Of a stretch of DNA of 64,000 nucleotides, positions 37,441 to 52,300 are shown piece after piece; the stretch's first letter is position 1, and every line of letters starts with the position of its first letter. The stretch covers positions 310,001 to 374,000 of the forward strand of contig NZ_JAFFJU010000001.1 of the NCBI RefSeq assembly GCF_016924655.1, in the 5' to 3' direction. The position numbers were made by a program, and so were the translations under genes. The notes below the pieces were generated by a model. It was not told the origin of the DNA. It ran no database searches and saw nothing but the letters and a program-made list of their open reading frames with translations. The DNA is from Sphingomonas arenae. GTDB lineage: Bacteria > Pseudomonadota > Alphaproteobacteria > Sphingomonadales > Sphingomonadaceae.

Positions 37441-38994
37441 CTAGCTGCGTTCGAGTTCGCGCAGGCTGCGACCGCAGGTTTCGCGGCCTGCCCAGCCGAT
37501 CAGGCCGGCGGAGGCGGCCATGGGGGCGAGCAGGCCGAGCGCCGCGCCGCTGAGCGTGGGAATCAGCCCGGCGAGCGCGAACAGCTGCACCGCGACGCCG
37601 CCAAACTTGCTGCTGCCTGCCACCAGGCCCGTCGCGCGGGCGCGGATGCCGAGCGGATAGCTTTCGGCCGTGTAGGGCAGCAACACGGCGATCATCCCGT
37701 TGGTGCCGACGATCAGGCAGGCGATGACGGCGATTAGCAGCGGTGGCCAGGTCAGGACCTGGGCGGGGAGGACGGCCCCGACCAGCCCGACGAAGGTCAG
37801 GAGCGCGGTGCCGACCAGGGTCCACTTGCTGCTCCACCGGCTGTAGAAAAAGGCGGCCAGCATGACCGTGGGCAGGGCGAGCACGGCCGAGCTGGCGATG
37901 ATGCCGCTGGCCAGTTCCGCGCTGTAGCCGCGCGCCTGGAGGTCGCTCGGCAGCCACAGCAACAGGCCGAAATTCACGAAGCTCCACGACAGGGCGGCGA
38001 CGGTGAGGGCCACGGTCAGCCGACGGTGCCGGAGGTCGCCGGAGCCCGTGCTCTCCACGCCGGGAGCGCCGCGGGGAACGATGCCGAAGCGATGCTCCAT
38101 CTGCTTGAGCTCGACCATTCGGCCCTGCTCCGCCAGGAACCGCGGGGATTCGGGGATGAGGCGGGCCAGAGCCAGCAGGAGGAGACCGCTTGGGAAGCCC
38201 TGCAGCCAGAGCGAGCGCCAGCCGTAAATGGGCTCGAACGTATGGGCCGCGGCGCTTGCCGCCAGGTAGCCGCCGACGAGCCCGGTGCCGCCGACGAACA
38301 CGAGGATCCACGAGCGGTGGCGGGGCGGCATGACCTCCGCGAGGAGGGTGTAGACCACCGGAAGCATCCCGCCGGCCGACGAACCCATCAGGAAGCACAT
38401 CAGGAGGTTCCACTCGAACGCCGGCATGGCGCCGCAGATCGAAGTGGAGACGAACAGGATGGTCGACAGCAGGATCGAGACCCGGCGGCCGTAGACGTCC
38501 GCAAGCCAGCCCCACAGGAGTGAGCCCACCGTCGTTCCGATCAGCGCCACCAGCGGCAGGAGCGCCGCGGTGGAGCGTTCGATGCCATATTCGCGGGCGA
38601 GCCCCGGCAGTACGAAGCCGAGAGTTGCTGGCTTCATGACGTCGATCACCAGCCCCAGCGTCAGCACCAGCAGGACCCCGGCATGCCAGCGGTTGAGCGG
38701 TGTGTCGTCCCGCGCCTCGTAGCCGGTCGCCGCGGCGGAATCGTGTGGGGCGCGGTGCCTGGGCAAGGCTCCCCAGCAGGCGAGCGGGACACCGATGAAG
38801 ATCAGCGCCATGCCAAGCATCATCCAGCCGTCCATGGGCATGTGCGACATGCTGTTGTGACCCATGGCATGGGCATGGGCGAGCATGGGCAGGTGCAGCA
38901 GGACGCCGACACTGATCGCCACGCACCCGGCCCAGAACCAGGGTGCGCGCTCTCCGACGATCGACGGCCGATCCACTGAAACACTCGCTGTCAT
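37441..38994 (-). CDS. MFS transporter with His/Met-rich N-terminal extension
   Basis: A 517-residue transporter. The start MTASVSVDRPSIVGER at 38994 is used because upstream codons read as non-coding. The MFS core begins near residue 95 (WHAGVLLVLTLGLVIDVMKP) and shows motif A at GWLADVYGRRVSI plus a sugar/aromatic-acid-transporter-like second half. Ahead of the core are two extra membrane segments joined by a loop rich in His and Met (LAHAHAMGHNSMSHMPMDGW), suggestive of metal binding. A typical MFS protein has 400-450 residues, so this extension is unusual. Substrate unknown. It is followed by no obvious partner on its strand. Confidence 0.82.
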   Translation of the reverse strand: MTASVSVDRPSIVGERAPWFWAGCVAISVGVLLHLPMLAHAHAMGHNSMSHMPMDGWMMLGMALIFIGVPLACWGALPRHRAPHDSAAATGYEARDDTPLNRWHAGVLLVLTLGLVIDVMKPATLGFVLPGLAREYGIERSTAALLPLVALIGTTVGSLLWGWLADVYGRRVSILLSTILFVSTSICGAMPAFEWNLLMCFLMGSSAGGMLPVVYTLLAEVMPPRHRSWILVFVGGTGLVGGYLAASAAAHTFEPIYGWRSLWLQGFPSGLLLLALARLIPESPRFLAEQGRMVELKQMEHRFGIVPRGAPGVESTGSGDLRHRRLTVALTVAALSWSFVNFGLLLWLPSDLQARGYSAELASGIIASSAVLALPTVMLAAFFYSRWSSKWTLVGTALLTFVGLVGAVLPAQVLTWPPLLIAVIACLIVGTNGMIAVLLPYTAESYPLGIRARATGLVAGSSKFGGVAVQLFALAGLIPTLSGAALGLLAPMAASAGLIGWAGRETCGRSLRELERS

Positions 38995-39058
38995 GAGGAA
39001 AGCTCTAGATGATGATGGGAAGGCGGCAAGTGCGGGGATGCAAGATGCGGTACGGTGG

Positions 39059-40732
39059 TCAGGCGTCGATGTTGCGGGTGCGGGTTTCAGGAAGGAACAG
39101 CAGCCCGACGACGACGGTGACCACGCAAACCGCGATCGGATACCAGAGCCCGTAGTAGATATCGCCGGTGGCAGCGACCATGGCGAAGGCGGTGGTGGGC
39201 AGGAAGCCTCCGAACCAGCCATTGCCGATATGGTAGGGCAGCGACATGCTGGTGTAGCGGATCCTGGCGGGAAACAGCTCAACCAGCAGCGCGGCGATCG
39301 GGCCGTAGACCATGGTGACGTAGAGCACGAGGATGAACAGGATCGCGATCACCAGCGGCTTGTTGATCGCGTTTGGGTCGGCCTTGTCGGGGTAGCCGAC
39401 AGCCTTCAGCGCGGCGGTACCCGAGGCTTGGAAAGCCTTGATTGCTTCTGCCCGTTGGGGTCCGGCGATGGCGTTCGGATCGACCCACGGGATCAGGGTG
39501 TCGCCGATCTTCAATTGCGCAAGCGAGCCGGGCGGAGCGTCCACGTTTGCGTAGCTGATCCCCGCCTTGGCCAGGTAGGATTTCACGATGTCGCAGCTGC
39601 GCGCATCGAACTTGTTCCGGCCTACCGGATCGAACTGGACCGAGCAGTCTGCCGGGTCGGCAATGACGCTGACCGGCGCGCTCGCCTGGGCGGCATAGAG
39701 GGCGGGGTTGGCGGCCCGCGACAAGGCATGGAATAGCGGGAAATACGTGAGCGCCGCGAGCACGCAGCCCGTCAGGATGATGGGCTTGCGCCCGATCCGG
39801 TCGGACAGCCAGCCGAAGAAGATGAAGAAGGGCGTGCCCAGTGCCAGCGCGACGGCGATCAGAATGTTGGTGGTCGCGCCATCGACCTTCATCATCTTCT
39901 CGAGAAAGAAGAGCGCGTAGAACTGGCCGGTGTACCAGACCACCGCCTGACCGGCGACGGCTCCAAGCAGGGCGATGATAACGAGCTTCAGGTTCGGCCA
40001 CTTGCCGAACGCTTCGGTCAGCGGCGCCTTGGACGTGGTGCCCTCCTCCTTCATGCGCTTGAACACTGGGCTCTCGTTCAGCTGCATCCGGATCCACATG
40101 GAAACGGCAAGGAGCACGATCGAAATCAGGAAGGGAACGCGCCAGCCCCACGAGGCGAAGGCTTCCTCCCCCAGGGCATAGCGGACGCCGATCACCACCA
40201 GCAGGGCAGCGAATAGGCCGAGCGTGGCCGTGGTCTGGATGAAGCTGGTGTAGAGGCCGCGCTTGTGATTGGGCGCATGCTCCGCGACGTAGGTGGCCGC
40301 GCCGCCATATTCGCCGCCCAGCGCCAGGCCCTGGAGGAGGCGCAGGAGCACCAGGATGACGGGAGCTGCGACTCCGATGCTCGCATAGCTGGGCAGCAGG
40401 CCGACCAGGAATGTCGACAGGCCCATGAGGCCCATGGTGACGAGGAAGGTGTTCTTGCGCCCGACGAGGTCGCCGATGCGGCCGAAGACGATGGCGCCAA
40501 AGGGCCGGACCGCGAAGCCGGCCGCGAACGCCGCAAGCGCGAAGATGAAGCCGGTGGTCTCGTTCACGCCCGAGAAGAATTGGGCCGAGATGATCGTCGC
40601 CAGCAAGCCGTAGAGGTAGAAGTCGTACCACTCAAACACGGTGCCGAGCGAAGAGGCGGCGATGACGAGCTTCTCGCTCTGCGTCGCCTCATGATGCTTG
40701 GGCGTGTCTCCCGCTTGTTGGGCGGTGGCCAT
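39059..40732 (-). CDS. MFS transporter, metabolite:H+ symporter (MHS) type
   Basis: A 557-residue member of the ProP/KgtP-like MHS family. Signatures: SSLGTVFEWYDFYLYGLLAT, RPFGAIVFGRIGDLVGRKNT (motif A) and ALGGEYGGAATYVAEHAPNH. Twelve helices are expected, with a large soluble insert between helices 8 and 9 or so (PVSVIADPADCSVQFDPVGR through YPDKADPNAI), containing two Cys that could pair. This loop of about 110 residues makes the protein longer than ProP-like porters. Probably imports an organic acid or osmolyte with protons. It is 64 bases upstream of the other MFS gene on the same strand; co-transcription is possible. Confidence 0.88.
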   Translation of the reverse strand: MATAQQAGDTPKHHEATQSEKLVIAASSLGTVFEWYDFYLYGLLATIISAQFFSGVNETTGFIFALAAFAAGFAVRPFGAIVFGRIGDLVGRKNTFLVTMGLMGLSTFLVGLLPSYASIGVAAPVILVLLRLLQGLALGGEYGGAATYVAEHAPNHKRGLYTSFIQTTATLGLFAALLVVIGVRYALGEEAFASWGWRVPFLISIVLLAVSMWIRMQLNESPVFKRMKEEGTTSKAPLTEAFGKWPNLKLVIIALLGAVAGQAVVWYTGQFYALFFLEKMMKVDGATTNILIAVALALGTPFFIFFGWLSDRIGRKPIILTGCVLAALTYFPLFHALSRAANPALYAAQASAPVSVIADPADCSVQFDPVGRNKFDARSCDIVKSYLAKAGISYANVDAPPGSLAQLKIGDTLIPWVDPNAIAGPQRAEAIKAFQASGTAALKAVGYPDKADPNAINKPLVIAILFILVLYVTMVYGPIAALLVELFPARIRYTSMSLPYHIGNGWFGGFLPTTAFAMVAATGDIYYGLWYPIAVCVVTVVVGLLFLPETRTRNIDA

Positions 40733-40802
40733 TCACGTCTTCTCCCCCTGACTTGGGCATGGTTGCGCGTTTCTGCGCCGAAGGGAACAGCCGTCGAAGA
40801 GA

Positions 40803-43800
40803 TCAGTGGAAATCGTGGGTGCGGATGGGAATGACTTCCTCCGGGTCGCAGCCAGTGCGGAAGGGCGGATGGTAGAGGTTGCGGGGGTTCGGGCGCCAGC
40901 CGGTCTCGCCACGGTCGGGCGAGCCGCCGTTGGTGGCGCCGTCGCCGGGACTGGTCAATCGCGGCAGGTCGATGTCGCCGACTTGGCGGAGTAGAGGCGT
41001 TTGGTCGTGGATGCGGCTGGCGATGACGTGGATGACCTCCGCCTCGCGCTGGACCACGCCGGTGACGCTGATCATCGCCGAGGACATGACCACCGTGCGC
41101 TGCGCTTCGAACCGGTCGGGCCACAGGATGATGTTGGCGACGCCGGTCTCGTCCTCGATGGTGATGAACAGGACGCCCTTGGCGCTGCCCGGCTTCTGCC
41201 GGACGAGGATGATGCCGGCGACCTCCACCCGGCGGCCGTCCTTGACGTTGGCGAGGTCGGCGCAGCGGGTGATGCGCTGGCGGCTGAGTTCGTCGCGCAG
41301 GAAGAAGAGCGGATGCTGGCGCAGACTGAGCTGGGTGGCGCGATAATCCTCCACCACTTCGCGACCTGCGGTGAGCGGTACCAAGCTGACAGGCTCCTCC
41401 CTCCGTTCGGCCGCTTCCAGCAGCGGCAGCGGGGACTCTCCGAGCCCGCGGATCGCCCACAGCGCCTGCCGCCGGTTGAGGCCCAGCGACTGGAATGCGT
41501 CGGCCTTGGCCAGCTTCTCCAGCGTGGCGAGCGGTACGCCGGAGCGGCGCCACAGGTCCTCGACTGAGGCGAACGGCCGCTGGTCGCGCGCCGCGAGGAT
41601 GCGGGCGGCGTGGATCTCGGGCAGACCGTGGACGACCTTCATGCCGAGGCGCAGGGGGAGGTAGTTGGCTGCGTCATTCCCGCGGGGGCGGGGATCCATC
41701 TCGTGCCCTCCTCTCCCGTGACCGGGTTGGGAGATGGATTCCCGCCTTCGCGGGAATGACGAGTTACTGGCGGAAGCTATCCCAACCAGCCGCGTGTCCC
41801 ATTGGCTGTCATTCACGCACACCGGGCGGATCTCCACCCCGTGGTCGCGGGCGTCGCGGACGATCTGGGCGGGGGCGTAGAAGCCCATCGGCTGGGCGTT
41901 GAGCAGCGCCGCGCAGAAGACTTCGGGATGGTGGCACTTCATCCATGACGAGGCGTAGGCGATCTTGGCGAAGCTCGCCGCGTGGCTCTCGGGAAAGCCG
42001 TAGGAGCCGAAGCCCTCGATCTGCTTGACCAGCCGCTCGGCGAATTCGGGGTTGATGCCGTTCTTCGCCATGCCGGCCATCAGCTCTTCTTTGAACTGGC
42101 CGACGCCCTGCGTGTACTTGAACGTCGCCATCGCCTTGCGCAGCTCGTCGGCGCGCGCAGGCGAGAAGCCGGCGCCCTCGATCGCGACTTTCATCGCCTG
42201 TTCCTGGAAGAGCGGCACGCCAAGCGTCTTTTCCAGCACCGCCTTCAGCTTCGCGCTGGGATATTCGAACTCAATATGGGGGTTCTCGCGCTTCTGCTGG
42301 CGGCGCTTCAGATAGGGGTGGACCATGTCGCCCTGGATTGGGCCCGGGCGGACGATCGCGACCTGAATGGCGATGTCGTAGAAGTTCACCGGCTTCATCC
42401 GCGGCAGCATCGCCATCTGCGCGCGAGATTCGATCTGGAAGGTGCCGAGCGTGTCCGCCTTCTGGATCATGGCGAAAGTGGCCGGATCGTCCGTCTGCAG
42501 CTCGGGCGACGAGAGCGTCAGGTCGAGCCCCTTGTGCTCGCGCAGCAGGTCGAAGGCGCGCCGCATGCAGCCGAGCATGCCGAGGCCGAGGATGTCGACC
42601 TTCATCAGGCCGAGCTCCTCGATATCCTCCTTCTCCCATTCGACGACCCAACGATCTTCCATGGCGGCGGGTTGGATCGGCACGAGGTCGTGCAGCGGAT
42701 CGCGGGTCAGCACGAACCCGCCCGGATGCTGCGACAAGTGCCTGGGTGTGCCGATCAGCTCCCGCGCCAGTTCCAGCGTCAGCGCGAGCCGCGGGTCGCC
42801 GCGGTCGAGATTGAGCGCGTCGACATGCTTGTCCGCGACCCCCTCCTCCGACCAGCCCCAAACCTGCCCGGCCAGCGCCGCGGTCATGTCCTCGGGCAGG
42901 CCGAGCGCCTTGCCCACCTCCCGCACCGCGCCACGGGCCCGAAAGCGGCTAACTACGGCGGTCAGCGCCGCATGGTCGTGGCCGTAGGTGCGGTAAATCC
43001 ACTGGATGACTTCCTCGCGGCGCTCGTGCTCGAAGTCGATGTCGATGTCGGGCGGCTCGCGCCGGTCGGGCGAGATGAAGCGCTCGAACAGCAGCTGGTG
43101 CTCGATCGGGTCGATCGAGGTGATGCCCAGGACGAAGCAGATCATGGAGTTCGCCGCCGACCCGCGACCCTGGCAGAGGATGCCTTGGCTCCGCGCATAG
43201 CTGACGATGGAGTTCACGGTCAGGAAGTAAGGCGCATAGGCCATCTGCTTGACCAGCCGCAGCTCATGCTCGAGCAGGTCGAGGTAGCGCTGGTCGGGAA
43301 CGCCGTTGAAGGGCGGCTTCTGAAACAGGCGATCGAGGGCGTCGCGGGCGAGTTTCTCCAATGCATCCTGCGGCGACCTGCCGCTGATCACGATTTCTTC
43401 CGGATACTGGTAGCGGATTTCGCGCAGAGAGAAGGTGCAGCGCTCCACGATCGCCTGCACTGCCGACAGCGCTTCCGGGTATCGGGTGAAGCGCCGCTCC
43501 ATCTCTCCGGGCGGTTGCAGGCAGCGGTCGGCTGAACGCTCGCGGCGGAGGCCGAGGTCATCGATCGTGCACTTCTCGCGGATGGCCGTGACTACATCCT
43601 GCAGCGTGCGCCGGTCAGGCTCGTGGTAGAGCGCATCCCCGGTCGCGAGTGGGGTCAGGCCGAAGCGGCGAGCTTCCGCAGCGATCCTGTGCAGTCGCCG
43701 GCTGTCGTTCGGCCGGCGCAGGTGGGTCAGGCAGACATGGCCACGATCGGCCCCAAAGATGTCCGCCATCCAGCGCAGTTCCGCCTGGTCCGCACCGTCG

Positions 43801-44210
43801 GGTCCGGGCACGAGCGAGGCGAGCAGCCCGTCCGAATAGGCGGCCACGTCATCCCAGTGGAGGAAGCATTTGCCTTTCTCCCCGGCCCTTGGGTCGGCCC
43901 GCTTGTTGCCCAGGCTGAGCAGCCGGGTCAGCCGAGACCAGGCGGCGAGGTCTTCGGGCCAGACCAGCACGGACGCGCCGCTGACCAGGTCGAGGCGGCA
44001 GCCGGCGACCAGGCGGATGTCGAGATGCCTGTCCTTCTTGATCTGCTCGGTCGCATAGAGGGAGCGGACAAGCCCAGTGACCGAATTGCGGTCCGTGACG
44101 CCCAGCGCAGGCATGCCCATCAGCGCGGCGGTGGTGAACAGCTCCTCTGGCGAGGACGCGCCGCGCAGGAAGGAGAAGTGGGTAGTGGCCTGAAGTTCGG
44201 AGTAGGTCAT
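40803..44210 (-). CDS. dnaE2: Error-prone DNA polymerase DnaE2 (ImuC)
   Basis: A 1135-residue C-family polymerase acting in damage-induced translesion synthesis. It starts with the PHP domain ([32 protein letters not shown]), followed by the catalytic core with the acidic motif [20 protein letters not shown], the [20 protein letters not shown] block, a thumb/fingers region ([40 protein letters not shown]) and an OB-fold ([20 protein letters not shown]). Residues of about 818-846 (FPRRRESIS ... DPRPRGND) are foreign: they are the translation of a palindromic repeat at 41673-41760, lying in a loop before [14 protein letters not shown]. The reading frame remains open. It starts 9 bases after imuB stops and belongs to the SOS-controlled imuA-imuB-dnaE2 operon. 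Confidence 0.95.
   Translation of the reverse strand: [1135 protein letters not shown]
41673..41760. repeat. Palindromic mobile repeat inserted in dnaE2
   Basis: An 88-bp element bounded by perfect 12-bp inverted ends (GTCATTCCCGCG / CGCGGGAATGAC). The two 30-bp arms pair at 27 of 30 positions around a 28-bp loop, so it can fold into a long hairpin. Its translation, with FPRRRES and DPRPRGND, is the well-known reading of REP/MITE-like repeats of the ATTCCCGC-GGGAAT type found dispersed in many proteobacteria. It carries no transposase and interrupts dnaE2 without breaking its frame. Confidence 0.9.
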
Positions 44211-44219
44211 GGGACGAGG

Positions 44220-46694
44220 TCAATCGACCCTGCCGTGGAGGAACCAGCTGAGGTCTCCCGTTTCGCTGCGCACGCCGTCGCCCCGACGGTAGAGCCAGAA
44301 GCGCTGACCGCTTTCCACTTCCACCTGGAAATAGTCGCGCACTGCCTGGCGCTCCGCCGGGCGGCGCCACCATTCGCCAGCGATGCGCTCCGGCCCGTCG
44401 GCGCGGACAACGCGATAGGCCTTGCCGCGCCAGGTGAAGCGGCGGGGCGGCTGATCCGGCAATTCGGCCATAACATGGTGCACCATCTCGGGCCGGCGCA
44501 GCAGCCGGACCGGACGGGGCCAGCGCGGATGCCACGGGTGGTCGGGGGCGCGGCTATCCAGCAGGCGGACGTCGTCGCGCTTGGCCTTGGCGAGACGCTT
44601 GGGTCCAGGGTCGAGCGGCGGCGCGAGCGCAACCGACCGTTCGGGCACATCACTCTCCACCGGCGACGCGCGCCACAACCGGTCGGCGCCGATCCGGTTG
44701 GCCAGCGTGTCGACGAGCGGCGCCAGGTCCGGCACTTGCGGGTCCGCGAGGGCGGGCGCCAGCGACTCCGGGCCGAGCGGGTCGGCGCGGTGGACGTGAA
44801 GGGCGATCGCATCGATGCCGAAGCCAGGCTCGATCTCCTCGATGCGGCGCAGGGCCAGGCGCAGCATGTGCGCGGGGTCGCGGGTCGGCCGGGCAAAGCC
44901 CAGCCGGAGCCGTTGGGGGACACCGTCGACTCGGGCTGCGATCAGCTCGACCGAGCGGGCGCCCTGCCCTGCTTCGGCGAGCGCGCGGGCGAGGCGCGGC
45001 ATGAGCTGCCGAAGCCAGTGCTCGATCGCTTCCGCCGTCGCGATCGGCTCGGCGAAACGCTGCTCCACGGTGACCGTGGTCGGCGGCACGACCGGGTCGA
45101 ACGGCTCCGGCACCCGGCCGGTCGCCTGGTCGAGGCGCAGGACAATGGCCTTGCCGAACCGGCGCACCAGCGGCGCGCGCGGCATCGCCAGCAGCTGCCC
45201 GGCCGTGTCCACCCCCAGGCGCGCGAGCAGCTCGAGCGAAGCGGGTTCCAGGCGCAGCGCGGTGACTGGCAGCGGGGCGATGGCGGCGTCGTGCTCCCCC
45301 GGCTTGACGATCAGCGCTGCCCCTCCGCCGCCATGCCGCGCCAGCGCCCAGGCCGCGCCCGCCGTGTCCGCGATCGCCAGGCGCGCGGTGACCCCGTGCC
45401 GGGCAAGCAGGCGCAGCAGTCGGCGGGCAAAGCGCGCCTCGCCCCCATGCAGGTGGGCAACGCCGGTCAGGTCGATGAACAGGCCGTCCGCATCGGAGAC
45501 CGCGACCACCGGCGACCAGCGCCGGGCCAGCAATTCGGCCAGTGAGCGGAGGTCGGCGGCATCGCCTTCCGGGTCGGCGACGCGGACCTCCAGGCCCGGG
45601 ACCTGCGCGCGGGCCATGGTCAGCGCCATGCCGGGGGTGAGACCAAGCGACCGCGCGGCGGGGTTGGCGGCGGCGATCTCCACCCGCGGGCCGACCTTGT
45701 GCGTGGTGACCAGCGGCGGCTCGTCAGGCGGAAGGTAGCCGATATCGGTGAGAGCTCCCTCCTCCCGGCACACCCGGGCGACCACGCTGCCGAGCGTCCG
45801 GCCAGTCTGGAAGAAGCGGCCTTGGCCATAGGTCGGCGCGATCGGTTCGCTCTTGCCGTGATTGTCGGGGTGCGGCCCCTCGCCCGGGAACTGCACGGCG
45901 GGCATGGCGGCAAGCTGAGCCAGACTGGGCGGCGCGATGTAGCCGGCCTCCCCGCCATGCCCGTCGCGGGCGCTGCGCCTGGGTGAGCGCTGGGCCCGGC
46001 GCGTGGCGACATCCTCACCGGGGAACTGGACGGACGGCAAAGCGGCGACACGATGGATCGAGAGCGGCCCATGCCCTACGACGCCGCTCAGGACAGGCGG
46101 AGCCTCGTTGCGGTAACGGTCGCGCTTCGCCTCGGCCCGCAGCGCGGCGCCACGGTTGGCCTTGGCGGGCGCGTCCTCTCCCGGAAACTGGAGGGAAGGC
46201 ATGGGCACGCGATCCGCGATGCGCCGGCCGACCTCGTCCGAGGGCATGGAGCGGAACGGATGCTCGGCCGCCTCCGTCCGGCGCGACAGCTCGCGCAGCA
46301 GCGGCGGTGGCGCGACGCGCTCCTCGGGCGGGCGGGAAAGGCCCTTCTTCGGCTCAGAACCCCGGAAGGGATTGTCGGCCGCGACGCTGACCCGTCCGAG
46401 CTCGCGCTGCGGGGGGCGGCGGTGCTGGGGCAGCGCCTCGATCGCGGCCTCCACCTCCTCGCGGGTGTCGGCCAGCCCGCTTCCCGGATCGGACTTGGCC
46501 CAGCGTGCACCCGGACGCCAGCCGCCCTCCTTGGGCACGGAGCAATGCTGCAACCGCTCGGCCGCCGCCTCCGCCCCTAGCGCATGATATGCCGCCTGGG
46601 CGTCGGCTTCAGGCGACGGCGCGGAGCGGCGCTCGGCCCGCCGCAGCCGGTCGATCGGCCAATAGGGCAGGTAGAGCGAGGCGACCCGTTTCAT
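44220..46694 (-). CDS. imuB: ImuB (inactive Y-family polymerase) with large N-terminal insertion
   Basis: An 824-residue adaptor of the ImuABC mutasome; typical ImuB is about 500 residues. It starts normally (MKRVASLYLPYWPIDRLRRA), then has an inserted region of roughly 300 residues (about 24-325), rich in Arg, Pro and Glu and probably disordered, before the usual sequence resumes (VTTHKVGPRVEIAAANPAAR). The insert has three copies of (M/L)P(S/A)(L/V)QFPGE at about 165, 219 and 264. The Y-family body has VVAVSDADGLFIDLTG in place of the catalytic acidic motif, consistent with an inactive polymerase. The C-terminus (RQAVRDYFQVEVESGQRFWL) is a DUF6504-like tail. It overlaps imuA by 86 bases and precedes dnaE2 by 9. 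Confidence 0.93.
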   Translation of the reverse strand: MKRVASLYLPYWPIDRLRRAERRSAPSPEADAQAAYHALGAEAAAERLQHCSVPKEGGWRPGARWAKSDPGSGLADTREEVEAAIEALPQHRRPPQRELGRVSVAADNPFRGSEPKKGLSRPPEERVAPPPLLRELSRRTEAAEHPFRSMPSDEVGRRIADRVPMPSLQFPGEDAPAKANRGAALRAEAKRDRYRNEAPPVLSGVVGHGPLSIHRVAALPSVQFPGEDVATRRAQRSPRRSARDGHGGEAGYIAPPSLAQLAAMPAVQFPGEGPHPDNHGKSEPIAPTYGQGRFFQTGRTLGSVVARVCREEGALTDIGYLPPDEPPLVTTHKVGPRVEIAAANPAARSLGLTPGMALTMARAQVPGLEVRVADPEGDAADLRSLAELLARRWSPVVAVSDADGLFIDLTGVAHLHGGEARFARRLLRLLARHGVTARLAIADTAGAAWALARHGGGGAALIVKPGEHDAAIAPLPVTALRLEPASLELLARLGVDTAGQLLAMPRAPLVRRFGKAIVLRLDQATGRVPEPFDPVVPPTTVTVEQRFAEPIATAEAIEHWLRQLMPRLARALAEAGQGARSVELIAARVDGVPQRLRLGFARPTRDPAHMLRLALRRIEEIEPGFGIDAIALHVHRADPLGPESLAPALADPQVPDLAPLVDTLANRIGADRLWRASPVESDVPERSVALAPPLDPGPKRLAKAKRDDVRLLDSRAPDHPWHPRWPRPVRLLRRPEMVHHVMAELPDQPPRRFTWRGKAYRVVRADGPERIAGEWWRRPAERQAVRDYFQVEVESGQRFWLYRRGDGVRSETGDLSWFLHGRVD

Positions 46695-47361
46695 CTGGAG
46701 CCTCCACAATCATGTCGAAAGGTCCCCCCCCACGCTGGCGGACGCAGGACAGGCGCCAGCAGGCGCGGCCAAGCCCCTCCCACGGGACCGGCACCGATGG
46801 CGCGCTTGCCACCTGCCAGCGGGTCACGGCAGCCGACGGCATGGCCAGCGGATCGCCGCCGTCCCGCGCGGCTCGCTTCAGCAGCAGGGCCGGCGTGCTC
46901 CCTCCTTCGGCAGCCAGCTGGAGCCGGCGGGTCGAGGCCATGGCAACGCGCTTCACCTCGCCGATCACCGCACCAAGCCCGCGGTGCCGCAGCCCATCTT
47001 CCATCAGCGCGAGCAGCTCCGCATCGTCGCGGGCCTCCGCATATATCACGCGGCTCGGGTCCAGCCCGGCCTGGTAGAGCCCGGGCGCGAACAGGTCGCG
47101 GGCCCGCACGACCCACAGGATCGGCCCCTCCGTCCGGGCCGCGATGCCGGCCATGAACAACACCGCCGCGGCATCGTCGCCCCAGCCGGCACCCTCGCCC
47201 GCCACCTCGTGCAGGGCATCGAGCCGCAGCCCCTCGCCCGCCAGCCGCTCGTCGATCGCAGGAACCCCGAACGGCAGCACTGGCCGGTGGCGATCGCCAT
47301 CGCCTTCCAGCGCACGCACGGTTTCGCGCAATTCGGCAAGGGTTGATGGTAAAGCAGGCAC
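46609..47361 (-). CDS. imuA: ImuA (RecA-like SOS mutasome component)
   Basis: A 250-residue RecA-fold protein that works with ImuB and DnaE2 in SOS mutagenesis. It begins MPALPSTLAELRETVRALEG; the segment PFGVPAIDERLAGEGLRLDA followed by LHEVAGEGAGWGDDAAAVLF is the ImuA version of the RecA nucleotide region, with a degenerate Walker A. GPILWVVRARDLFAPGLYQA and HRGLGAVIGEVKRVAMASTR are further family blocks. First gene of the operon; a LexA box lies 22 bases before its start. Its 3' end overlaps imuB by 86 bases in another frame. Confidence 0.92.
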   Translation of the reverse strand: MPALPSTLAELRETVRALEGDGDRHRPVLPFGVPAIDERLAGEGLRLDALHEVAGEGAGWGDDAAAVLFMAGIAARTEGPILWVVRARDLFAPGLYQAGLDPSRVIYAEARDDAELLALMEDGLRHRGLGAVIGEVKRVAMASTRRLQLAAEGGSTPALLLKRAARDGGDPLAMPSAAVTRWQVASAPSVPVPWEGLGRACWRLSCVRQRGGGPFDMIVEAPDETGRLALPALLADRPAAAGRAPLRAVA

Positions 47362-47382
47362 AGCGCGACTCGTAAGGCAGTT

Positions 47383-47397
47383 GTTCTCGTTTTGTTC
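47383..47397. promoter_or_regulatory. LexA (SOS) box upstream of imuA
   Basis: GTTCTCGTTTTGTTC matches the alphaproteobacterial LexA operator GTTC-N7-GTTC exactly. It ends the promoter region 22-36 bases upstream of the imuA start. LexA binding here would repress imuA-imuB-dnaE2 until DNA damage. Confidence 0.9.
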
Positions 47398-47530
47398 CTG
47401 CCGTCCCGCGGAGTCAATGCGCTCGCACAGACACCTGAAAAAGCTTCAGGCGGGGCCCAAGCGAATCCGCTCGAACCCCGCCTTCCGCCGTTGGGCACCG
47501 TGTGACCGACGCTCACCCCCTTGGGTCATC

Positions 47531-47890
47531 TCATCTCGCCGCCGTGATCACCCGGGTGCGATCCTCGGACCTGACGACTTCCGCCGCCTCCGACTTGCCG
47601 AAGCACGTCCGCTTGAGGCGCGCGGTCGGGGACTTGTGAACCACCCTGACGCGGCAGGTCCTGCGGTTCCCTTCCACGGAGTCCGTCTTGCCGGACCAGC
47701 CCGCCTGTCCATCCGAGCGCGGCGCTGCGGATGCCGGCGGCGTGGCGCCTGCCGCGACCAGAGTCGCCACCACGCCGCCGAGCAGGATTGCCGAGACCTT
47801 ATTGCGGTCCAGGCTCCCCTTCTTCCCTGCCGCCTCCCGGCGAGAGGTGCCGGGCTGCAGCCAGGAAGGCTTTGCTTCGAATGCGATCAT
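47531..47890 (-). CDS. Small exported protein with two conserved cysteines
   Basis: A 119-residue predicted secreted protein. The first 28 residues are polar, then comes a signal-like apolar segment (NKVSAILLGGVVATLVAAGA) ending in TPPASA, a plausible signal peptidase site. An internal start nearer the segment is possible. The mature part is short and basic, with a CRVRVVHKSPTARLKRTCFG pattern: two Cys about 17 residues apart around a basic loop, reminiscent of small sphingomonad exported proteins with a C...GSR...C motif. Function unknown. It follows the methyltransferase gene by 51 bases on the same strand. Confidence 0.55.
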   Translation of the reverse strand: MIAFEAKPSWLQPGTSRREAAGKKGSLDRNKVSAILLGGVVATLVAAGATPPASAAPRSDGQAGWSGKTDSVEGNRRTCRVRVVHKSPTARLKRTCFGKSEAAEVVRSEDRTRVITAAR

Positions 47891-47941
47891 TGTCCTGTTC
47901 CCTTGAGTTCGTGTCGATGAAACCGTGAAAGCCGTCCTGCT

Positions 47942-49021
47942 TCAGGGGCGCACTTCGAGCACCATGTTGAACGGTGTTTCGGTGGCCCGCCGGACCTGGG
48001 TGAAGCCCGCGGATTCCAGCACCTCGCGGAGCCTGCGCTCGCCGGCCTGTGCCCCGAGCCCCAGCCCGACCTCCTGCGCCAGCGACGCCGGCGTGCAGAT
48101 CATCGTGGAGGAGGCATAATAGAGCCGCCCCACCGGGTTGAGGTTGTCCTCCAGCCGGTCACCGGCCAGCGGCTCGACGATCATCAGGGTACCGTCGGGC
48201 TTGAGCGCCTGGCGGATCTGCCGGGCGGCGCCTGCCGGATCCCCCATGTCGTGCAAGGCATCGAAGATGGTCACGAGGTCGAAGCCTTCGCCCGGGAAGT
48301 GCTGCGCGCTCGCCACTTCGAACCGCACGCGATCGGCCACTCCGGCCTTCTCAGCGGCCGCCCGGGCATGTTCGATCGACTCCGCATGGTAATCGAACCC
48401 GATGAAGGTCGAGTTGGGGAAAGCCTCGGCCATGATGATGGTCGACGCCCCATGCCCGCAGCCGACGTCGGCGACGCTGGCCCCCTGCTCCATCCGCTCG
48501 ACCATGCCGTCCAGTGCCGGAAGCCAGTCGGCGACCAGATGAGCAACATAGCCTGAGCGGAAGAAGCGCTCGCATCCGCAGAAGAGCATCTGGTCGTGCT
48601 CGTGCCAGCCGACCCCTGCGCCGGTCCGGAACGCCTGCTCGATCTTCGGACTGTCGATGACGTTGGAGCACAGGATCTCGAACGATCCGACGAAAAAGAC
48701 GGGACTGTCCTCGTCGGCGAAGGCGAGGGCCTGTTCGGGAGTGAGGCCGTAGCGCTCCTCCGCCGCATCATAGGTGATGTACCCGGCGGCCGCCTGGGCG
48801 GCGAGCCATTCCCGCACGTAGCGCTCGTGCGTGCCCGTCGCATCGGCGAGCTGGTCGGAGGTCAGGCCCTCGCTCGCAGCCAGGGCCTTGTAGAGGCCCA
48901 GGCGATCGCCGAGCACCACCAGCGGCGCCGTCGCGGCCGCACCGGCGTCACCGACTAGCTTGCCCATGAATTCCTGCAACTTCGCTTCGTCGAAGGCTGG
49001 TGTTGATGTCTTGTCGAGCAT
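47942..49021 (-). CDS. Class I SAM-dependent methyltransferase
   Basis: A 359-residue methyltransferase from the ATG at 49021 (MLDKTSTPAFDEAKLQEFMG). The N-terminal 110 residues are a winged-helix dimerisation region (LVVLGDRLGLYKALAASEGL; ATGTHERYVREWLAAQAAAG). The SAM domain has motif I VADVGCGHGASTIIMAEAFP, the acidic FIGFDYH and FDLVTIFDALHDMGDP. The acceptor is unknown; proteins of this shape methylate small molecules. An in-frame TTG at 49183 with AAAGGAG eight bases upstream would add 54 residues (FGVEEQLAECRKRFAELFDR and a CCSS motif) with coding-like codon use; the true start is open. Confidence 0.85.
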   Translation of the reverse strand: MLDKTSTPAFDEAKLQEFMGKLVGDAGAAATAPLVVLGDRLGLYKALAASEGLTSDQLADATGTHERYVREWLAAQAAAGYITYDAAEERYGLTPEQALAFADEDSPVFFVGSFEILCSNVIDSPKIEQAFRTGAGVGWHEHDQMLFCGCERFFRSGYVAHLVADWLPALDGMVERMEQGASVADVGCGHGASTIIMAEAFPNSTFIGFDYHAESIEHARAAAEKAGVADRVRFEVASAQHFPGEGFDLVTIFDALHDMGDPAGAARQIRQALKPDGTLMIVEPLAGDRLEDNLNPVGRLYYASSTMICTPASLAQEVGLGLGAQAGERRLREVLESAGFTQVRRATETPFNMVLEVRP

Positions 49022-49341
49022 GATCTTCCCCGCATGTTCAGGATTGGACGAACAACAGCCCTCATCGGGCTTCTCGGGAGACAGGCGCGGAAGGTCGTCG
49101 AGCCAGTAGCGATCGAACAGCTCGGCGAAGCGCTTCCTGCACTCCGCCAGCTGCTCCTCGACACCGAACCCAGATTTCCCCAACGCGACTGCTCCTTTCG
49201 CCGGCTTATCTGCCGGGGAAGCGTCACGACCCGACGTCGGCGCAGCCGGAAAATGGTCACGATTGTAACAGGCTCTGCCGGCCGCATTGGCGATGCGAGT
49301 TAATGCGGTACATTGTGCGCCAGCAGTCAGGGGCCTGCCGG
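49022..49341. other. Spacer between methyltransferase and hybrid kinase
   Basis: No separate gene was accepted here. On the minus strand the first 160 bases stay open in frame with the methyltransferase and look coding (see that entry). The remaining bases before the hybrid kinase start should hold two divergent promoters; none matches a known operator by eye. Confidence 0.45.
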
Positions 49342-52300
49342 ATGCAACGTGTTGACCTGGTGGACGAACCATCCTCGATCGACGGCGACCTGCCGTTCCG
49401 GCTCCTTGCCGACCATCTTCCGGCGCTCTGCTTCATGGCGGACGGCGGCGGACGAGTGCGGTGGTGCAATCGCAGATGGTACGATTACACCGGCGCGCTC
49501 CCTGGAGCCGATCCCCACGAGATCTGGCCTTCGCTTCATGACCCGACTTTGCTGGATGAAATTCAGGCGCGTTGGGATGCCAGCATCCGCAGCGGCGAGG
49601 CCGGCGAGATGGTGGTCCTGCTTCGAGGGGCGGACGCGCGCTTTCGGCCGTTCCTGACCCGCGCCGAACCGGTCAAGGCGCCGGACGGCTCGGTGCGATG
49701 CTGGCTCGGCACGATGACCGAGATCGGCGAGCAGCGCGAGGCGGAGCAGAACCAGCGATTTCTCGTGCAACTGGGTGATGCGCTGCGCGACAAGAGCGAT
49801 CCCGCGGAGATCCTCTTTGTCACGGGCCGCCAGCTTGGCACCCACCTTGGCTTGAGACGAGTCGGCTACGGCGAAGTCGAAGAGGACGGCAATACGGTCA
49901 TTGCAGGCGGCCGGGGTTGGCAGCCGACGGATGAGCCCGCCGTCACCGAAATGCTCTCCCTCGACAGCTTCGGGCGCGGAATGGCCGACCAGCTACGCCG
50001 TGGCGAAGTCTCCGTCATTGCCGACACGCTGATCGATCCGATGACGCACGGTGCAGCGGAGGTGCAGTCGGCCTACGACATTCGCGCCAGCGTCACGGTT
50101 CCGCTGATCAAGAACGGCCGGTTGGCGGCGGTGCTCTATGCTCAGGATTCCTCGCCGCGGGCCTGGCGCGATGCCGAGGTGCAGCTGATCCGGGAAGTGG
50201 CCGAGCGAACCTGGGCGACGCTCGAGCGGGCGAGCGCGGAGACCGCCCGCAGCGAGAGCGAGCAGAGGCTGCGCGAGAGCGAAGCGCGGCTGCGCGCGAT
50301 CGTCGACGCCACCCCAGAGTGCGTGAAGCTGGTCGCACCGGACGGGTCACTGGATCACATGAATGCCGCCGGGCTCCGGATGCTCGAAGCAGATACGGAC
50401 GCGGATGCACTCGGTCGTGACATCGTGAAGGTCATCGCGCCCGAGCACCGCGCCCGCTGGCGCGAGAACCACAAGCGCGTCTGCGCGGGCGAGAGCCTCG
50501 TATGGGAGTTCGATGTCATCGGCCTCAAGGGCACCCGGCGACATATGGAGACGCACGCCGTGCCCCTGGCCGACGCGCATGGCCGCATGCAGCAGCTGGC
50601 CGTCACCCGGGACATCAGCACGCGGAAGGCGACCGAAGCAGCGCTGGCGGAGAGTGAGGCCCGCTTCCGCGGAGTCATCGAGACCGCGCACGAGGGCATC
50701 TGGCTGGTCGACCGGGAAGCGCGAACGCTCTTCGCCAACCAGCGGATGGCGGACCTTCTGGGGACCACACGGGAGGAGATGCAGCAGCGCAGCGTTCCGG
50801 ACTACAGCTTTGCCGAAGACCTGGAGGACACGCGCCAGCGGATCGGCAACAACCTGTCAGGGAACCCCGAGCAGTTCGAGTTCCGGTTTCGCCGGACCGA
50901 CGGCACGCCCCTGCCGGTGCTCGCGGCTACGGCACCGCTTCGAGATGGCGAGGGGAACATCGTCGGCGCCGTCGGAATGTTCAGCGATCTGACGGAACGC
51001 AAGCAAGCCGAAGAGAAACTGCGCGAAAGCGAAGCGCTGCTAGCCGCGTTCATGAAGCACGCCCCGATCGGCATGTACCTGAAAGATGCCGACGGGCGAT
51101 ATCTGATGCTCAATCCGGAAATGGCAAAGGTGTTCGACCGACCGCTCGAGGAGGTCGTCGGCGAGAGCGCTGCAGAGCTGTTCGGTCCGGAAGAAGCGGC
51201 AATGATCGCCGAGTTCGACCGCGAGATCCTGGCCTCCGGCCGGTCGAGGCGGGTGGAAGAGCATCTTCCCGGTCGCGACGATTACGAGTGGTCCCTGGTG
51301 GTTCGGTTCCCGCTCGCCTTGGACGAGGAGAAGTCCACCCGCATCGGCGGTTTCGACATCGACATCAGCGACCGCAAACGGGCCGAGGCCGAACTGCAAC
51401 GATCGCGCGAGGCCTTATACCAATCCGAAAAGCTGACCGCCCTGGGCAGTCTGCTGGCAGGGGTCAGCCATGAACTGAACAATCCCTTGTCCGTGGTGCT
51501 GACCTTGTCCGAACTGCTGGAGCAGAAGGCCTCCGGAACCCCATTCTCCGAACGTGCCGCCAAGATCCATGCCGCGGCCGCACGATGCGGCAAGATCGTC
51601 CAGACGTTCCTCGCCATGGCTCGCCAGAGAGCTCCGGTGCGTCAATCGGTCAGCGTCAACGCGCTGGTCAGCGGAGCGCTGGAACTGACCGCCTACAGCC
51701 TGCGCACGGGCGGCGTCCAAATCGTCCAGGAACTGGCCGAGAGTCTTCCGTTGATCGAAGCGGATGCGGACCAGCTTGGTCAGGTGCTTGTGAATCTCCT
51801 GGTCAACGCGCAGCATGCGCTTCTGGAGCGGGATACCCAGCGGGTGCTGACGATCCGCACATCTGCGGACGAGCGCAGCCGAAGGGTCCGGGTAGAGGTG
51901 GAGGACAATGGCCCCGGAGTAGCACCGGAGATTCGCCGAAGGATCTTCGACCCTTTCTTTACCAGCAAGCCGCAAGGCCAGGGCACCGGCATCGGCTTGA
52001 CCTTCAGCCTGGGTATCGTGGAAGCCCACGGCGGCACCCTGCGGCTCGACGATCCGCCGGATGGAGGCGCGCGGTTTACCATCGAACTTCCGGCTCGTGG
52101 GGAGGCAATGCCTGCACCCGGAAATGGCAACGAGCGGACTGCGGAAAGTGCATCCGGCCGAGCGCTGGTAATTGATGACGAGCCGGATCTTGGCGATGCT
52201 CTCGCGGAGATGCTAGCTGACGAGGGGTACCGGGTCGACGTCGTGCGGTCCGGCGAAGACGCCAAGAAAATGATCGCGCTGCATGACTATGACGCAGTGC

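Follow-up and report, generated by a model that had tools for sequence, protein, structure and literature searches.

What does an insertion of about 300 residues do near the start of ImuB? This protein serves as hub to the DnaE2 mutasome, the source of damage-induced mutations in many bacteria, whose subunit assembly is only partly known. The question is raised by a 64,000-nucleotide stretch of Sphingomonas arenae (contig NZ_JAFFJU010000001.1, positions 310,001 to 374,000; hereafter the window), in which the imuB gene belongs to an imuA-imuB-dnaE2 cassette with all three genes on the minus strand (Table 1). An initial annotation, made from the letters alone, had pointed out the insert, called it probably disordered and absent from typical ImuB, and suggested that its repeated short motifs, among them three copies of a QFPGE motif, serve multivalent binding, for example to ImuA, the clamp or RecA. 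We found that the first part of the insert is a selected module of family-wide occurrence, wider than first thought, and that the QFPGE peptides are an elaboration of a narrower lineage. Judging from sequences and models together, we lean towards the view that the insert is a selected, disordered arm docking a partner within the mutasome, either ImuA or DnaE2, with no preference between the two.

The window ImuB starts with MKRVASLYLPYWPIDRLRR, and conserved sequence resumes near amino acid (aa) 326, so that the insert lies close to the 45700-46620 originally given. DNA polymerase IV (Pol IV; PDB 4irc and others), an active polymerase, aligns through its residues 40-342 to ImuB aa 338-639 (Foldseek probability 1.00, template modelling score (TM-score) by target about 0.5); about 300 ImuB residues are therefore extra, Pol IV having about 40 residues where the window ImuB has 338. 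Among the rows shown of the Foldseek search with the ImuB model, Pol IV, Dpo4 and Rev1 were found at probability 1.00 with TM-scores by target of 0.38-0.52. Human REV1 (PDB 3gqc) matches ImuB aa 332-594 both by sequence (E 1.8e-4) and by fold, in a match that leaves out the insert; REV1 carries core insertions too and acts as a scaffold. In a comparison with Pol IV, the Asp of the first motif and the Glu of the second seem by eye to be absent (ASLYLPYW; SDADGLFIDLTG).

AlphaFold models of two proteins bore out the proposed disorder. For the window ImuB, modelled with 51 aligned ImuBs, the ten-residue mean of the predicted local distance difference test (pLDDT) is 31-58 over aa 21-320, except for 66-78 at aa 81-100, and a helix is predicted at aa 78-86. 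The score is mostly 83-97 over aa 331-640 (one block 71) and 40-95 beyond that; low values (42-47) also mark the first 20 residues. In the model of the Sphingobium sp. SYK-6 protein (L088), the start has a pLDDT of 88-90 and the module about 33-64. Low values in the QFPGE part are expected whatever its state, because the alignment is shallow there. An arm that is disordered and near the N-terminus could also serve as a ClpXP or Lon protease tag limiting ImuB, and scarcity of a mutator could be selected; nothing observed speaks directly for such a turnover signal, no known degron having been looked for, and we consider it highly improbable.

On the aligned sequences, the best-conserved element of the insert is not QFPGE; it is WRPGARWA with LPxHQRP/RELGRRSE, which the initial annotation had not singled out. 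A profile (A2) made from 24 aligned inserts reads CSVPRGGGWRPGARWA - variable linker - I.ALPAHQRPPMRELGRRSEAA.HPF, and the corresponding module signature, CSVPRGGGWRPGARWA...LPxHQRPxxRELGRRSE..HPF, makes up the first part of the insert. The window ImuB carries both WRPGARWA and LPxHQRP/RELGRRSE in its palm loop (A2 profile E 7e-29), as do the full-module members of the clade described below. Mean pairwise identity across 50 aligned ImuBs, a set biased by having been fetched with the very motifs scored, is 0.99 for WRPGARWA and 0.79 for LP...RRSEAA, with 0.66 for the core; the linkers between the motifs vary freely (0.33, 0.32 and 0.19). The likeness that had been noted between DNPFRGSEP (aa 107-115) and EHPFRSMPS (aa 144-152) is real: the first closes a full copy of the module and the second a half copy, and they thus belong to two copies of its second half. 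Seven close relatives (L002, L003, L004, L031, L145, L147 and L148) have between those ends a further copy, RGW...LPxHQRPxxxELSRRSE, which is absent from the window. The gap in the window sits between similar ends (EAAE-HPF; LVD-HPF in L002), from which we infer a repeat-mediated deletion. A basic and aromatic composition would also suit an arm whose Arg- and Trp-rich segments (GGWRPGARWAR, RRSARDGHGG) hold the template or single-stranded DNA near the mutasome rather than a protein, and the module has W and R residues that do not vary across the 24 copies aligned. The parts with QFPGE and DEG, however, are acidic or neutral, and on inspection the strict P-G-A spacing looks peptide-specific; we regard nucleic-acid binding as unlikely.

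The module extends well beyond the window. A scan of a genome collection with one genome per species (84,980 species) gave at least 262 relatives among the stretches it covered, the best 80 of which were analysed as named module loci. These 80 come from Sphingobium, Sphingomonas, Novosphingobium, Sphingopyxis, Croceibacterium, genus-less records and one metagenome-assembled genome (MAG) named Salinicola. Each of them encodes the ImuB core as well; core and module share a frame in 78 (77 by script, L083 by eye) and occupy different frames in L073 and L124, and some other loci stop short at a contig end or at an early stop codon. The stretches fetched around the 80 hold imuA in 78/80 cases and dnaE2 in 74/80. 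Some module-type imuB genes look broken, through the split frames of L073 and L124 or a core that is shortened or has gaps (L076, L095, L108), and two or three module-type cassettes occur per genome in Sphingobium naphthae, S. fuliginis and Sphingopyxis sp. H053 (L062/L063, L072/L076/L083 and L126/L129/L131).

Within the Sphingomonadaceae, the module profile matches 61 of 397 genomes, 58 of the 360 of good quality, in 29 of 96 genera; one of the 61 (G368) is a weak match in an 85-codon frame that may be chance. This profile superseded an earlier query with the insert, which had matched 53/397. A search with the ImuB core matched 370/397 genomes of the family, with some matches weak and probably to Pol IV, and the module type is therefore a minority. 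In a sample of the class, the module is present in one of 385 genomes, the window's own, and at least four genomes of the family in that sample are without it; among plasmids it occurs in 10/72,556 records (seven Sphingobium, three Sphingomonas). Loci fetched by the core alone (29; L145-L173), a non-random set since they are the best matches to the window's core, hold the W motif in 26 cases, 25 of them exactly WRPGARWA, and the second half of the module in 22. The description of the insert as foreign to typical ImuB thus holds for ImuB outside one clade and fails within it, where a conserved module, present across the family, makes up the insert's first part.

This clade was delimited with a quick tree of the core, the insert being left out (166 rows; support only from the Shimodaira-Hasegawa-like approximate likelihood ratio test). 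Excluded were same-gene duplicates, rows with a core below 400 aa or a match starting more than 65 residues into the core, and the truncated rows L035, L053, L055, L059 and L108, of which the first three were replaced by the complete L148, L155 and L157 and the last two were not replaced. One clade, supported at 99, comprises 129 rows: 119 with the full module (L083, L097 and L109 counted by reading their sequences), five with WRPGARW only (L154, L159, L166, L171 and L208) and five with neither; the proportion with the module is inflated because most rows were fetched through the module itself. Its sister clade (18 rows, support 86) has no insert and no W motif, and the distance from start to core is 29-40 residues in 17/18 rows by a script pattern, with a similarly short loop in L212 by eye. 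One gain followed by cuts and losses would be the simplest reading of this tree. One genome, G297, has two cassettes, one with and one without the module.

Selective constraint was estimated as the ratio of non-synonymous to synonymous proportions (pN/pS) from an alignment of eight close relatives, six of which supplied the six pairs compared, using raw proportions uncorrected for saturation and segment limits drawn after alignment. The whole insert has a pN/pS of 0.20-0.33 vs 0.21-0.33 for the core, and by this comparison of sequences it is under purifying selection between close relatives. The ratio is 0.08-0.23 for aa 166-200 (first QFPGE), 0.28-0.59 for aa 201-237 (second QFPGE), 0.26-0.55 for aa 112-165 and 0.43-0.82 for the last linker; the most constrained block (Table 1) contains the third QFPGE and RFFQTGRTLGSVV. 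Comparison of homologues had been set beforehand as the test of the insert, and in close relatives the insert does not vary randomly: its motifs are kept, at a core-level pN/pS.

These values bear on whether the arm is merely a tolerant loop that collects functionless duplications and repeats. The distance from start Met to core varies from 71 to 469 aa (median 130, 119 module rows), the insert of one distant relative (L157, genome G128) took up interspersed repeats in frame after the module, the module segment is no more constrained than the core, and five rows have lost the module. Against neutral growth stand the core-level purifying selection on the whole insert, the far stronger selection on aa 238-309 and the survival of WRPGARW through truncation in five separate rows. 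Neutral growth of the arm as a whole is distinctly unlikely in our estimate; for the linkers it probably holds. The repeats of L157, at 712-906 and 1117-1347 of that locus, are translated in frame. G128 contains 60 matches to the first stretch, and these include the second stretch, from the same insert, an instance of repeat recruitment into a protein arm.

The QFPGE motif, (M/L)P(S/A)(L/V)QFPGE, is present as MPSLQFPGE (aa 165-173), LPSVQFPGE (aa 219-227) and MPAVQFPGE (aa 264-272), with the Q residues 54 and 45 apart as originally stated. The repeat is beyond chance. The real insert contains a 9-mer matched at 6/9 or more identities by two others that do not overlap; when the insert was shuffled 200 times with its composition preserved, no such trio appeared. 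Copy 2 is intact in L003, reads VQYPGED in L148 and has become VHGPGED, VQGPGED or VRGTCED in the other five relatives. QFPGE-like peptides occur in 13/124 module ImuBs (three copies, variants included, in seven; two in one; one in five), and three exact QFPGE are found only in the window and L003; a TGRxL block occurs in 10/124, the distant L157 included. Multivalent binding is made plausible by the duplicated motifs, but a multivalency of QFPGE itself is not strictly kept, because the motif is limited to one lineage and its middle copy decays.

As to the partners first proposed, the canonical clamp pentapeptide Q-x-x-[LMI]-[FLW], without proline at x, occurs in 0/124 inserts, and the clamp as a partner through this motif is not borne out. 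At the usual place before RecA-NT, a Q..[LIMFV] clamp motif is found in 4/124 module ImuBs, 0/18 sister rows and 0/5 rows that lost the module, vs 16/19 in the outgroup; the window has PLGPESLAPAL there (44703-44789, imuB aa 636-664). This scarcity could suggest that the insert has taken over clamp docking from the C-terminal motif. The sister clade, however, lacks the canonical spacing and has no insert, so the loss is older than the insert; and a degenerate site may persist in place, because a Q is still nearby in 12/18 sister rows and 48/124 module rows. Together with the absence of the pentapeptide from the inserts, this makes a simple relocation of clamp binding very unlikely, and it was rejected.

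Another candidate was a further RecA-NT-like motif that would contact RecA or ImuA as RecA contacts RecA, since on inspection the predicted helix followed by an extended segment superficially resembles RecA-NT. By hhalign, the second half of the module scored 0.1% and 0.7% against ImuB RecA-NT profiles, no better than control windows (0.0-6.6%), and 0.2% against the N-terminus of the genome's own RecA, a weak test in which genuine ImuB RecA-NT reached only 1.5% and 0.6%. The region around aa 657-681 matches its counterpart in outgroup ImuB (98.4%), although its likeness to RecA was not recovered with the single RecA used. With no signal in this insensitive comparison, the RecA-NT-like candidate was set aside, and we give it very little credence.

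Short conserved peptides within a disordered, length-variable arm of a hub are the usual mark of docking peptides, and we return to the docking arm as the preferred explanation. The arm emerges from the palm loop that joins the first helix of ImuB to the second strand, and WRPGARWA, LPxHQRP-RELGRRSE-HPF and, in the window's lineage, also LAAMPAVQFPGEGPHPDNHG and RFFQTGRTLGSVV would be short peptides that become folded on contact with a partner. This partner would most probably be another mutasome subunit, ImuA or DnaE2. The arm may have been gained once, by an ancestor of a single clade of sphingomonad ImuB. In the window's lineage, duplications of half-modules and of the QFPGE peptide made it longer, and selection then kept it, apart from the second QFPGE copy. 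The placement of the arm, its disorder in the models, its conservation, constraint and duplications, and a tree for which a single gain suffices are observations; protein binding, folding on binding and the identity of the partner are what we infer.

Several points weigh against this explanation. The module segment (aa 46-111) has a pN/pS of 0.13-0.34, no tighter than the core, and because this segment taken alone is only core-like in constraint, our confidence in the docking arm was slightly lowered. The HPFKAM part has an identity of 0.52 in the 50 aligned ImuBs, below the 0.66 of the core; five rows of the clade lost the module wholly (L008, L156, L161, L163 and L209), and most ImuB elsewhere, the sister clade included, do without it. 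Clade-specific residues single out no partner (7/246 columns in ImuA, 6/476 in the ImuB core and 22/1074 in DnaE2). ImuA F215 is a weak lead, being kept in 97% of 90 module rows and replaced by H in 3/5 loss rows (F in 2/5), with G in the module-bearing L120; nothing was drawn from it because 35 sites had been inspected with five loss rows. Finally, searches for relatives of the module gave nothing credible: the best match among PDB sequences had an E of 2 and was taken as chance, Pfam reached E 0.18 at best for one module and had no match for the window stretch with the third QFPGE, and NCBIfam matched neither the module nor that stretch. There is thus no analogue to lean on. A broader possibility, which we hold to be doubtful, is that in the sphingomonad mutasome the arm, with its near-invariant WRPGARWA peptide, is an extra surface beside the clamp site, RecA-NT and ImuB-C that would recruit a partner not known as a mutasome member, replace the decayed clamp contact functionally though not in sequence, and be multivalent in the window's lineage.

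Table 1. Features of the cassette and of the ImuB insert, in window coordinates; aa numbers refer to ImuB.
Feature	Position	Strand	Remarks
imuB	44220..46694	-	824 aa, ATG at 46694; Y-family-like core and ImuB-C (DUF6504)
Disordered insert (modelled), aa 24-325	45720..46625	-	Between first helix and second strand of the palm (L088 model)
Family-wide module, full copy (aa 49-112: QHCSVPKEGGWRPGARWA ... LPQHRRPPQRELGRVSVAADNPFRG)	46359..46550	-	Profile match 46338-46550, E 7e-29
WRPGARWA (aa 59-66)	46497..46520	-	Most conserved element
Second, half copy of module (LRELSRRTEAAEHPFRSMPSDE)	46224..46304	-	Second profile match, E 5.5e-6, and alignment
QFPGE copy 1 (aa 165-173)	46176..46202	-	
QFPGE copy 2 (aa 219-227)	46014..46040	-	Decaying in most close relatives
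QFPGE copy 3 (aa 264-272)	45879..45905	-	In window and all seven aligned close relatives (QYPGE in L148)
Most constrained insert block, aa 238-309 (SARDGHGGEAGY ... QFPGEGPHPDNHG ... RFFQTGRTLGSVVARVC)	45768..45983	-	pN/pS 0.00-0.14
Resumed ImuB core, aa 326-824	44223..45719	-	
imuA	46609..47361	-	NCBIfam ImuA_translesion 62 bits, below cut-off 150; overlaps imuB by 86 nucleotides
dnaE2 (error-prone polymerase)	40803..44210	-	NCBIfam PRK05672 1275.7 bits, cut-off 939
Possible SOS box GTTC-N7-GTTC	47383..47397	+	About 20 bases upstream of imuA

The window ImuB was assigned by Pfam matches to IMS (41.6 bits, cut-off 23.2), IMS_C (40.2, cut-off 20.7) and DUF6504 (36.8, cut-off 24.2), the last being ImuB-C as read from its position among the domains; the imuA product matched no Pfam family. 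GTTC-N7-GTTC, which we take to be the alphaproteobacterial form of the SOS box, has a single match in the window, with 1.27 expected by chance in 64 kb. The overlap of imuA and imuB is 80-101 nucleotides in 85/85 module loci where both genes could be placed (92 examined); in 36 other cassettes, mostly sister and module-free ones, it is 62-92 (one 155), values that depend on start-codon guesses. The insert begins about where the double coding ends (imuB aa 28-29), which may be the first place free to grow.

Upstream of imuA, a gene for an SOS response associated peptidase (SRAP) was found in 46/92 module-type loci vs 0/16 module-free cassettes of the window's genus, some loci being cut by contig ends (examples L129:3319-3933 and L088:4450-5097; two proteins checked by Pfam), and SRAP had no match at window 38001-52000. 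A DUF1810 gene adjoins the SRAP gene (L129:3933-4367), and this open reading frame has relatives in 36/92 module-type loci. Within dnaE2, a palindromic repeat of about 90 bp is read in frame at window 41673-41765 (aa ~816-846, SSFPRRRESI...MDPRPRGND). The element has 70 matches in the window's genome, often on both strands of one place; the stretch was seen in 0/18 aligned DnaE2s of relatives, and L120, L178 and L222 hold other inserts there.

The window ImuB shares with proteobacterial ImuB1 the Y-family-like core, a candidate region at the position of RecA-NT, ImuB-C/DUF6504 and the cassette with imuA and dnaE2, and differs from it in the 300-residue disordered palm arm and in the missing canonical clamp pentapeptide, which is missing from the insert-free sister clade as well. 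Descriptions of the clamp motif, RecA-NT and ImuB-C are given by Timinskas and Venclovas (PMC6511836), by Santos et al. (PMC11791113) and in a 2026 survey of bacterial polymerases (PMC12926913). The survey mentions deletions of structural elements in ImuB, and the words 'insertion' and 'disordered' do not occur in its main text. The RecA-NT of ImuB and UmuC (PMC6511836, PMC11791113) is likewise a short Y-family peptide that docks a partner, as we propose for the arm. RecA-NT, however, is C-terminal and widespread, whereas the arm is N-terminal and, among the matches listed, confined to sphingomonads and the MAG named Salinicola, with no detectable likeness between the two. No description of the sphingomonad ImuB insert or module was found in the open-licence literature by titles and the beginnings of abstracts, nor any occurrence of WRPGARWA or GWRPGARW in that literature.

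A disordered arm with a peptide kept nearly letter for letter offers a small handle, two tryptophans that can be mutated, in the search for a new contact. Natural controls exist within the clade, in its full, truncated and arm-free ImuBs, and both types of cassette occur together in G297. The short signatures kept by selection in the arm suggest an undescribed docking site in the stress-mutagenesis machinery.

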